A stretch of 36,057 nt of DNA from Oscillospiraceae bacterium. Its GTDB lineage: Bacteria > Bacillota > Clostridia > Oscillospirales > Oscillospiraceae. Made by a program: the position numbers and the translations under genes. Numbering within the stretch: position 1 is the first letter of the stretch; every line of letters begins with the position of its first letter. Positions 1,474-17,940 of the stretch are shown here, in pieces. A model generated the notes under the pieces. That model did no database searches. It saw only the letters and a program-made list of their open reading frames with translations, and had not been told where the DNA came from. The stretch spans positions 1 to 36,057 of the forward strand of contig JAFQIL010000024.1 of the NCBI GenBank assembly GCA_017397565.1, given 5' to 3'.

Positions 1474-1703
1474 CCGCCCTTTCGAGCGAATGCTTCATCG
1501 ATACGCGCCGGAAGGGACTGCGACTCGCCAAGAGCCGCCTTTGGCGGTTGCTCGCTTGCACAGCGCCTGCGGGCGCTAGTCGTTTGCGTTGCCGTCCGGG
1601 AATGGACGGCAACCAAGGTGTCCTGCCCGTCCAGCCGGGCAGGAGCAACAGTCCACCGGACTGTTGCATTTTAGACTTTCGAGTCCCTTCCGGCAAAAAA
1701 ATA
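1474..1703. repeat. Hairpin element with tRNA-Arg-tail inverted ends, copy 1
   Basis: This copy shares two blocks with copy 2 (1953-2121): 46 bp at 1474-1519 and 122 bp at 1582-1703, the second with one mismatch. Its core is bracketed by an inverted repeat, GCCGGAAGGGACT (1507-1519) and AGTCCCTTCCGGC (1682-1694). That sequence is the T-stem/acceptor 3' strand of the nearby tRNA-Arg. Inside are perfect hairpins: GTTGCCGTCC/GGACGGCAAC (1588-1613), a CCTGCCCG-type hairpin (1622-1643) and GCAACAGTCC/GGACTGTTGC (1645-1667). About 61 bp present only in this copy (1520-1581) adds two more hairpins. No coding capacity is credible. Confidence 0.85.
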
Positions 1704-1952
1704 AGAGAGAGAGCAGAAGTAATTTCACTTTGCAAGAGGGAGAACGTGTTCAGTTTCCGTCCACATCCGTACCGGATACGTCCGGAAACTGAAGGACTCT
1801 CCCACGGGCTTCGTCGGAGGCAGGGTTGCACTGCTGCGTTCCCCTTTCGGGGAACATCCGCCAGCAAGCCTTGCTCCTCCTCTCCCCACAAAGCCTTGGC
1901 TTTGCGGGGGCCCCTTGTGTCAGGTCTCAATGTTACCCTCCCTTTGGTCGAG
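1704..1952. other. Gene-free spacer between the two tRNA-tail elements
   Basis: It contains further short hairpins: an imperfect one with CAGTTTCCG/CGGAAACTG arms (1751-1792), CCCC-TTTC-GGGG near 1841-1852, and GCAAAGCC-like palindromes near 1888-1906. I see no gene, although a long minus-strand frame crosses it. Confidence 0.6.
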
Positions 1953-2121
1953 CCGCCCTTTCGAGCGAATGCTTCATCGATACGCGCCGGAAGGGACTCG
2001 TTTGCGTTGCCGTCCGGGAATGGACGGCAACTAAGGTGTCCTGCCCGTCCAGCCGGGCAGGAGCAACAGTCCACCGGACTGTTGCATTTTAGACTTTCGA
2101 GTCCCTTCCGGCAAAAAAATA
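1953..2121. repeat. Hairpin element with tRNA-Arg-tail inverted ends, copy 2
   Basis: Same unit as copy 1 but lacking the 61-bp extra segment. The inverted ends are a perfect 15-bp pair, GCCGGAAGGGACTCG (1986-2000) and its complement (2098-2112). Both match the 3' end of tRNA-Arg(ACG), which lies just beyond the terminator. The right-hand tail runs directly into that terminator. Confidence 0.88.
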
Positions 2122-2148
2122 TGGGATAGGCGAAAGCCTATCCCATAT
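2113..2148 (-). terminator. Terminator of tRNA-Arg
   Basis: A perfect 13-bp stem (arms 2119-2131 and 2136-2148) with a GAAA/TTTC loop, followed on the minus strand by seven T residues. On the plus strand it would also terminate reading out of the tRNA-tail element, with a shorter T run. Confidence 0.88.
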
Positions 2149-2151
2149 TTT

Positions 2152-2228
2152 TGGTACGCCGGAAGGGACTCGAACCCCCGACCTACTGATTCGTAGTCAG
2201 TCACTCTATCCAACTGAGCTACCGGCGC
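2152..2228 (-). tRNA. tRNA-Arg (anticodon ACG)
   Basis: A 77-base cloverleaf on the minus strand. The acceptor stem GCGCCGG/CCGGCGT closes with a terminal G-U pair, and the anticodon loop CTACGAA on a 5-bp ACTGA/TCAGT stem gives anticodon ACG. The T-loop is TTCGAGT, and ACCA is encoded at the 3' end (2152-2155). It decodes CGN arginine codons, normally after A34 is deaminated to inosine. Its 3' end is the parent sequence of the repeats at 1474-2121. Confidence 0.96.
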
Positions 2229-17684: not shown

Positions 17685-17822
17685 TGGAGCGGGTGACGAG
17701 GCTCGTTTACATTTTCATTTCCGATGAAATGAAAATTATGGTAGCCACCAGTTTTTGAACTGGTGGCAGCCACATGCCACCGGCATGTGGCGATTGGGAG
17801 TTCGAGCCTCTACCGCTTTACC
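17685..17822. repeat. Hairpin element bounded by tRNA-Gly-tail copies
   Basis: The left end (17685-17705) is a 21-base exact copy of the 3' end of tRNA-Gly, including its CCA, on the minus strand. The right end carries GAGTTCGAGCCTC (17798-17810) and an ACCA-like end in the opposite orientation, a less exact tail. Between them are hairpins ATTTTCATTTC/GAAATGAAAAT (17711-17736), CCACCAGTT/AACTGGTGG (17746-17766) and GCCACATGCC/GGCATGTGGC (17769-17792). This is the same design as the element beside tRNA-Arg. Confidence 0.85.
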
Positions 17823-17864: not shown

Positions 17865-17940
17865 TGGAGCGGGTGACGAGGCTCGAACTCGCTACCTCCA
17901 CCTTGGCAAGGTGGCGCTCTACCGGATGAGCTACACCCGC
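17865..17940 (-). tRNA. tRNA-Gly (anticodon GCC)
   Basis: A 76-base cloverleaf on the minus strand. The acceptor stem is GCGGGTG/CACCCGC, the anticodon stem CCACC/GGTGG holds loop TTGCCAA (anticodon GCC), the T-loop is TTCGAGC, and TCCA is encoded at the 3' end. It decodes GGC and GGU. It has a near-consensus promoter and its own terminator. The stretch 17941-18041 holds only the promoter and the end of the next gene's neighbourhood. Confidence 0.97.

Follow-up and report, generated by a model that had tools for sequence, protein, structure and literature searches.

Which process has placed copies of the end of a tRNA gene, in alternating orientation, around palindromic sequences next to that same gene? 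This question is raised by the tRNA-Arg(ACG) locus of the window, by which we mean the whole analyzed stretch of 36,057 nucleotides from an Oscillospiraceae genome (contig JAFQIL010000024.1). A preliminary description had noted a duplicated hairpin element at this locus and had offered three readings: a small mobile element capturing tRNA tails, a structured RNA, or an array of attachment sites.

Hairpin units behind two tRNA genes of the window

The units at the tRNA-Arg gene follow one general plan, in which an inverted arm is succeeded by three hairpins (H1, H2 and H3) and finally by a direct copy of the tRNA 3' end. All of them lie downstream of the tRNA in its transcription sense, so that the "upstream" position given to them before holds in window order only. 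The features are as follows:

2152..2228, minus strand: tRNA-Arg(ACG), the occupied gene; the break point of the family lies within its T-loop, between T55 and C56
2115..2152, minus strand: T1, a terminator-like hairpin leading from the tRNA to unit 1; inverted repeat with 17/17 pairs
2096..2112, minus strand: inverted arm of unit 1, 17 nt complementary to the tRNA from T54 onward; 5' strand of the P1 stem
2063..2085, minus strand: hairpin H1 of unit 1, GCAACAGTCC-GGT-GGACTGTTGC; seen as inverted repeats and in the ssDNA fold
2039..2062, minus strand: hairpin H2 of unit 1, loop region GGCTGGAC, in the family commonly GGCTNGAC
2006..2031, minus strand: hairpin H3 of unit 1; seen as inverted repeats and in the ssDNA fold
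1986..2000, minus strand: direct copy of the tRNA 3' end in unit 1, from C56; 3' strand of the P1 stem
about 1699..1985 (limits by eye), minus strand: type B, a second kind of hairpin unit that separates the two type-A units
1678..1694, minus strand: inverted arm of unit 2
1588..1667, minus strand: hairpins of unit 2, H1 at 1645-1667, H2 at 1621-1644 and H3 at 1588-1613
about 1520..1580, minus strand: 61-bp hairpin-rich insert that interrupts the direct tRNA-end copy of unit 2
1507..1519, minus strand: rest of the direct tRNA-end copy of unit 2
17865..17940, minus strand: tRNA-Gly(GCC), the second occupied tRNA of the window
17694..17812, minus strand: third unit, with the arm and tail of tRNA-Gly(GCC) (GAGGCTCG / CGAGCCTC)

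The sequence of the tRNA-Arg T-loop, T-stem and acceptor (2158-2174) recurs inverted at 2096-2112 and 1678-1694 (17/17 each) and in the same orientation at 1986-2000 (15/15) and 1507-1519 (13 nt). Four further tail copies of alternating orientation, as claimed earlier, are indeed present, although the farthest one comprises 13 nt and not the full 15. The duplication of the unit is real as well: units 1 and 2 have 132 nt in common at 97% identity (1580-1711 against 1998-2129), and the 46-bp block noted before falls within a 61-nt block shared by 1459-1519 and 1938-1998 at 90% identity. The roughly 61 bp of extra hairpins reported for the copy farther from the tRNA were found again, and judged by eye the insert has a near-identical counterpart in a copy at tRNA-Asp of another genome (L255). 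An assembly artefact is an unlikely source of the duplication in the window, because the same architecture was found in other assemblies. While both units recognized beforehand were confirmed, the third unit at tRNA-Gly and the type B unit had been missed. The latter, in which GCCCGTGGGAGAGTCC precedes a long hairpin at 1749-1793, is present in three other loci too (L184, L190, L007).

Arms of the window units are 8-17 nt long and complementary to the T-loop and T-stem of the tRNA. Folded as single-stranded DNA and compared with 200 dinucleotide shuffles, unit 1 is predicted to form a cloverleaf with a closing stem of 15 bp (z = -11.8), and the tRNA-Gly unit is closed by 8 bp (z = -10.0); two stretches of another genome reached z = -5.7, for part of a unit only, and z = -5.6. 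A finder for arm, hairpin and matching copy yielded three matches in the window, compared to 0, 0, 1, 0 and 0 in five mononucleotide shuffles.

Beyond the window, a unit model built from 51 sequences gave 12 matches in the same genome. When loci of this genome were read, units carrying the tail of their own tRNA were found at tRNA-Leu(TAA), Pro(TGG), Tyr, Thr(TGT), Val(CAC), Arg(CCG), Arg(ACG) and Gly(GCC), together with decayed units at tRNA-Gly(CCC) and perhaps His.

Distribution of the units and their occupied sites

Searched for in related genomes, the unit body occurs as DNA in 48 of 99 genomes, the window's own included: 47 of 61 within the genus and one of 38 outside. Nine of 12 chosen genomes of the genus gave 10-27 matches to the unit model each (E <= 0.1; some of them weak, some on the opposite strand at the same place), and the remaining three, G006, G021 and G035, which are 97-99% complete, gave none. 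In an order-wide sample the model matched seven of 117 genomes, again with the own genome counted. A scan of named genomes for the H1 pattern delivered at least 119 stretches. Among the matches listed, relatives with units are mostly named Oscillospiraceae or Clostridia bins, and two Coriobacteriia-type contigs hold units with the tail of their own tRNA (L043, tRNA-Leu; L102, tRNA-Gln). The bare hairpin pattern is not specific, as unrelated repeats in Actinomycetes bins and others matched too. Phage and plasmid collections held no match to a 191-base query.

The association with tRNA genes is close. Counting repeated loci of the own genome, 109 of 162 pattern occurrences lie within 1.5 kb of a tRNA, and H1 starts a median of 71 nt behind the tRNA end (77 units with H1 within 140 nt). 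With the arm, hairpin and copy finder, 117 units were located behind 30 kinds of tRNA, the nearest tRNA being assigned to each. Furthermore, tmRNA is followed by units (L100, L108), and ends of 5S rRNA are duplicated around H1 hairpins in two loci (L115, L050). About 9-12 different tRNA loci are occupied in each of the three genomes that were read. The body of a unit measures about 100 bp and the repeat unit about 155-180 bp, spacer or terminator included; hairpins, tails and terminator fill it, with no integrase gene on board.

Comparison of corresponding loci revealed filled and empty sites. The spacer between tRNA-Arg and tRNA-His is 22 nt long when empty (L299) and 155-273 nt when filled, and that between tRNA-Thr and tRNA-Tyr 25 nt (L218) versus 137-144 nt. 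Other unit-free spacers differ in length, with, for example, 78 nt in L003, 36 nt in L134, 41 nt in L045 and 20 nt in L269, and two further loci are free of units (L354, L357). Among 30 fetched mutY loci, 21 contain tRNA-Arg(ACG), that of the window included. Read by eye, 13 of these 21 hold a unit, with hairpin sequences that differ among them; five have none (L167, L169, L174, L181, L182), two carry a tyrosine integrase gene at the tRNA and no unit (L173, L192), and one shows a doubtful remnant (L176). In L178 the unit is followed by a tyrosine integrase fragment of 197 aa. Of 12 further stretches, four contained the tRNA, none of them from G006, G021 or G035. The presence of a unit at a given tRNA differs between species. 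The unit of the tRNA-Arg locus is flanked by two terminators whose order is not fixed (L185 versus L190). A terminator-like hairpin precedes many units, but it is not an obligatory part, because units inside tRNA operons lack it.

How the units are related to each other was assessed from their bodies, in 48 units of ten genomes with each unit counted once. Identity was 0.673 between units of the same genome at other tRNAs, 0.620 between units of other genomes at the same tRNA, and 0.638 between units of other genomes at other tRNAs. The within-genome excess was reached by one of 5000 permutations, whereas no same-tRNA excess was present in this set (4457 of 5000 permutations). Examples of like bodies with different arms are the units of tRNA-Cys and tRNA-Gly in G011 (0.89) and those of tRNA-Glu and tRNA-Arg in G055 (0.88). 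Since a body resembles others of its own genome more closely than those found at the corresponding tRNA elsewhere, the units seem to spread from one tRNA to another.

Fit of arm and copy to the occupied tRNA gene

If the tails were a fixed part of the element, all copies would carry the Arg tail regardless of their location. This is not the case. An own-tail test covered 77 of the 105 stretches downstream of tRNAs, namely those with H1 at a distance of up to 140 nt, after removal of repeats; they represent 28 anticodons and 51 different tails. In 66 units, two of which are cut off by a contig end and score 0, the own tail fitted the direct copy at least as well as any other, and in 56 it was the unique best. 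For the inverted arm the own tail was unbeaten in 44 of the 77 units and uniquely best in 24. Mean scores of the own tail were 13.9 versus 6.5 and 12.2 versus 8.1, and none of 2000 permutations reached the observed values. An exact run of at least 8 nt between arm and tRNA was found in 100 of 129 units, compared to 4.9% of comparisons with other tRNAs; as four of the 129 are perhaps assigned to the upstream tRNA of the same operon, the count was repeated without the four units that have another tRNA starting behind them (98 of 125). The pairing between arm and tail mostly spans 8-10 nt.

Arm and copy do not follow the tRNA equally far. Agreement of the arm with its own tRNA is 0.95-1.00 at positions 56-62 and 0.83 at position 63, and drops to chance by about position 70 (129 units). 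The direct copy agrees at about 0.7-0.8 up to position 70 and at about 0.66 at positions 71-72 (106 units), its T-arm values being lowered by misread starts in some of these units. Because the arm is reliable at 56-63 only, the two parts are probably of different origin. The earlier idea that a small mobile element captures the tails of tRNAs is largely supported, with one correction: the direct copy reproduces the tRNA 3' end, whereas the inverted arm matches the tRNA reliably at these few positions only.

The boundary of the direct copy is sharp. In 122 stretches, chosen from 212 tRNA stretches for having both copies, its identity begins at C56 (79 stretches), at T55 (40 stretches) or 1-2 nt further on (three stretches), and 80 of these 122 copies extend through to CCA if up to two mismatches are allowed. 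The break point is thus T55/C56: before the unit stands a regenerated tRNA 3' end, and behind it the displaced copy, which starts at C56 and often reaches CCA. In addition, the spacer or terminator is duplicated together with the tail, at an identity of at least 0.8, in six of 75 units not followed by another one (L018, L024, L061, L111, L126, L297); two of 400 random pairs reach 0.8.

Among 117 units that passed a filter of at most one mismatch between arm and copy, arm, copy and tRNA agree throughout in 90. The arm alone differs in 19 and the copy alone in seven; both differ without compensation in one, and a compensated change occurs in none of the 117. Consequently, a P1 helix maintained by selection was rejected, and as the mismatches are one-sided, the match seems to have been acquired at insertion. 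A single compensated pair change occurs in a unit that this filter does not cover (L127).

Based on these results, we consider it somewhat better than an even bet, with a probability of roughly 55%, that the units represent a non-coding, non-autonomous mobile DNA element, which enters tRNA genes through site-specific recombination, its entering form probably being folded single-stranded DNA, and whose arm is matched to the target at insertion. Spread among tRNA genes would proceed through site-specific recombination at the T-loop. A putative recombinase would act in trans and most likely belong to the tyrosine family, because in the available text of PMC4383910 only tyrosine recombinases are described as targeting tRNA genes. 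As its substrate we envision the element as a folded single strand, a cloverleaf closed by the stem P1 of arm and tail, since arm and tRNA end together rebuild the target as a double strand. The arm of about 8-10 nt would restore this double strand, so that a tRNA gene would receive only those elements that have a fitting arm or one rewritten to fit. Both tails would come from a target duplication from C56 onward; the spacer duplicated with the tail in the six units is also compatible with a long target duplication. The arm would come either from a guide-like selection of elements or from copying at insertion. Simple integration of a circle carrying its old tail does not explain that the proximal tail and the arm both fit the new tRNA; an excised or circular form of the unit was not seen. 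Further points that speak against the preferred reading are the three nearly complete genomes without a match, the six units with a duplicated spacer, the variable terminator order at tRNA-Arg, the compensated change in L127, and an inverted arm that fits its own tRNA uniquely best in no more than 24 of 77 units.

A narrower version of the preferred reading is doubtful, yet deserves mention. Here, integration would be self-guided: a folded single-stranded element would pair its 8-10-nt arm with the T-loop and T-stem of any tRNA gene, a trans-acting recombinase would join the ends between T55 and C56, and the arm would be rewritten or selected at each hop. If true, targeting would be achieved by a DNA guide carried within the element.

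To our knowledge, a target-matched arm is without precedent. In the open-licence literature, judged mostly by titles, no earlier description of such elements was found. Hairpin units whose arm is usually matched to the tRNA they occupy point to a so far undescribed type of mobile DNA, one that adapts to the site it enters. If so, an abundant, gene-free family of mobile DNA would occupy about 9-12 tRNA loci per genome read, and would offer a natural setting in which to study how an element fits many different but related targets without breaking essential genes, the 30 kinds of tRNA being so many parallel tests. It might also represent a class of recombination sites, with 10-27 model matches per genome and some of them beside defence-like or toxin-antitoxin islands, and would bear on how tRNA hot spots are constructed.

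Competing explanations and known systems

The units could alternatively be debris, i.e., leftover attachment regions of tRNA-targeting islands or prophages, accumulated in the manner of CIMEs and not mobile themselves. Although we consider this unlikely, the resemblance is considerable: as in tDNA islands of the Islander type, a regenerated tRNA 3' end is combined with a displaced 3' tDNA fragment, the signature of such islands. Tandem arrays, use of tmRNA and a crossover in the T-loop region (T55/C56 in 119 of 122 units) are shared as well, with the anticodon loop, the T-loop and the T/acceptor junction given as crossover subsites of tDNA islands in the available text of PMC4383910. In line with debris, small gene islands lie upstream of units, and the tyrosine integrase genes mentioned above (L173, L192; fragment in L178) and large serine recombinases directly before units (L041, L162, L266) are located at tRNA ends or units. 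The large serine recombinases were also considered as the enzyme, but their position beside units is ambiguous, because many tRNAs of the genus carry units and islands at tRNAs will often adjoin one. A frame of 331 aa before another unit showed a zinc ribbon domain only (L291).

Debris does not account for a uniform body of three hairpins behind 30 kinds of tRNA with 10-27 matches per genome, nor for a similarity that tracks the genome and not the tRNA; moreover, the cargo islands seem, by eye, to have other termini. In contrast to tDNA islands, the units are about 100-180 bp long, lack an integrase, and possess three palindromes and a target-matched arm. They occupy about 9-12 tRNA loci in each of the three genomes read, compared to an average of 3.01 islands in genomes that contain any; tandem islands are recognized there by their own integrase (PMC4383910). 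An array of attachment sites, the third of the initial readings, thus captures the direct copies, which resemble displaced island fragments, and the tandem arrangement, but not a uniform structured family without integrase. CIMEs, the accretion elements at tRNA genes, lack an integrase and are flanked by att-like direct repeats. The units share both features, yet are far smaller and differ by their uniform structured body and the inverted arm matched to the target.

Some units have genes of the same orientation upstream, and many have no adjoining gene. These genes encode a TIR protein (L070), AbiEi/AbiEii (L047, where AbiEi stays below the Pfam cut-off and the fetched 8 kb contain no tRNA), an HTH protein (L302) and unknown proteins (L300, L052), and a ParE-like toxin gene lies between two units of one tRNA-Tyr (L276). 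By eye, the cargo segments end in shared sequences of their own, forming two groups (L276 with L300; L052 with L302), which suggests that they are other mobile elements. The cargo genes may therefore belong to ordinary islands that share these hot spots with the units.

A structured RNA, in which the transcribed unit would fold into a cloverleaf and mimic a tRNA end as a decoy for RNase P/Z, a sponge or a regulator, was also among the initial readings and is now disfavoured. The predicted fold is strong, H1 varies among 59 distinct strings with its pairing kept nearly perfect throughout, and units within tRNA operons (Thr-Tyr, Arg-His) are probably co-transcribed with the tRNAs. However, a functional RNA should tolerate G·U pairs, and the stems show no sign of this. 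Among 3549 Watson-Crick pairs in the stems of 146 units (42 of 188 lacked a clear orientation), G·T on the tRNA strand was counted 10 times and A·C 11 times; as the choice of H1 had partly favoured perfect hairpins, the other two hairpins were also counted alone, with 7 G·T versus 9 A·C. Both controls differ: 170 terminators that follow tRNAs in the fetched loci, processed with the same hairpin routine, gave 67 G·T versus 9 A·C, and the acceptor and T stems of 131 tRNAs, read by position, 149 versus 5. G·T and A·C are thus equally rare in the units, which argues that the hairpins are kept as DNA, and palindromes that vary yet remain near-perfect are what is expected for DNA hairpins or cruciforms. 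Furthermore, many units lie behind a terminator-like hairpin, mismatches between arm and copy are uncompensated, and among the Rfam families tRNA alone reaches the gathering score in the window. Taken together, this makes a functional RNA rather improbable.

Template switching is improbable to a like degree. A palindromic element might have its arm repeatedly corrected to the nearby tRNA during replication, as known for quasi-palindromes, and such correction would give the almost perfect hairpin arms seen everywhere and an arm match that weakens with distance from the hairpins, in the direction of the acceptor end. It leaves unexplained the sharp boundary at C56, the empty and filled sites and the similarity within genomes, and one-sided mismatches persist in 26 of 117 units.

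Integron attC sites comprise extrahelical bases, R and L boxes and a core of the GTTRRRY type. The units are comparable in that their palindromic body varies in sequence, their ends are complementary, the single strand folds with these ends paired (two window units were folded) and arrays occur. They differ by having three hairpins, whereas attC forms one stem with bulges, by an end sequence that is that of the local tRNA, and by many units being gene-free. An integron-like array of mostly empty cassettes at tRNA genes, with the folded unit as recombination site and an occasional defence or toxin-antitoxin gene, is hardly credible: the same-orientation genes upstream of units in six loci (L070, L047, L276, L302, L300, L052) and an arm-to-tail pairing of 8-10 nt, resembling the 9-11 nt of terminal self-pairing given for attC in the available part of PMC2727003, would favour it, but many units lack an adjoining gene, the cargo segments have, by eye, shared ends of their own, and no integron integrase (TIGR02249) exceeds the cut-off in any of the 61 genomes of the genus, many of which are drafts, so that this absence is not absolute. 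The integron integrase thus has no support as the enzyme.

REP/BIME elements with their RAYT (Y1) transposase are likewise multicopy elements in which DNA hairpins form short clusters between genes. The units, in contrast, sit precisely in tRNA genes and are accompanied by direct repeats of the tRNA end. In addition, the Y1 transposase (PF01797) was absent from six of the nine genomes with 10-27 matches (G001, G011, G022, G026, G055, G060) and present in G018, G019 and G058; as its presence does not track the elements, it has no support as the enzyme either. From MITEs and other IS derivatives, finally, the units differ in having no fixed terminal inverted repeats with a short target duplication; their outer parts carry the sequence of the local tRNA and vary among copies.

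Hairpin-rich insert and type B units

Two further features lie within and between the two hairpin units downstream of tRNA-Arg(ACG) in the window:

1520-1580, hairpin-rich insert of 61 bp within the direct copy of the tRNA end
1699-1985, hairpin unit of another kind (type B), behind the tRNA

The insert appears to be a small mobile repeat lodged inside the first element, because a counterpart that is near-identical by eye is present in the tRNA-Asp copy of L255, a locus from another genome (L-numbers denote fetched loci). Type B units were also found behind tRNAs in L184, L190 and L007, where the unit opens with a tRNA-complementary arm. Their layout comprises GCCCGTGGGAGA, or a near variant, followed by a short stretch of tail sequence from the local tRNA and by a long hairpin.

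The H1 hairpin in other settings

The bare pattern of H1, the first hairpin of the main unit, is not specific, since the identical 23-nt hairpin occurs in an apparently unrelated repeat of Actinomycetes bins (L087, L095, L112, L120, L137). In eight loci from other bins (L044, L054, L059, L065, L090, L134, L140, L156) the H1 core is the same while the flanking stems differ; these units are likewise situated behind tRNA ends and, judged by eye, fall into four or more additional layouts. The same H1 is also flanked by duplicated 5S rRNA 3' ends with terminator, with three H1 copies in the L115 array:

L115:4-404, duplicated 5S rRNA 3' end and terminator
L050:7185-7381, duplicated 5S rRNA 3' end and terminator

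Genes near tRNA-end sequences

Sequences resembling tRNA acceptor ends were observed at the 3' ends of three large serine recombinase genes:

L041:1469-2887, large serine recombinase gene
L162:1080-2675, large serine recombinase gene
L266:319-1851, large serine recombinase gene

Small gene islands lie upstream of the units in L070, L047, L276, L052, L300 and L302, and across these loci encode TIR, AbiE, ParE-type toxin, HTH and unknown products. By eye, the islands of L276 and L300 share a right end that contains TGCACCCC repeats plus TTAGGGTT, and those of L052 and L302 one containing TTCGAATTCATACGC.
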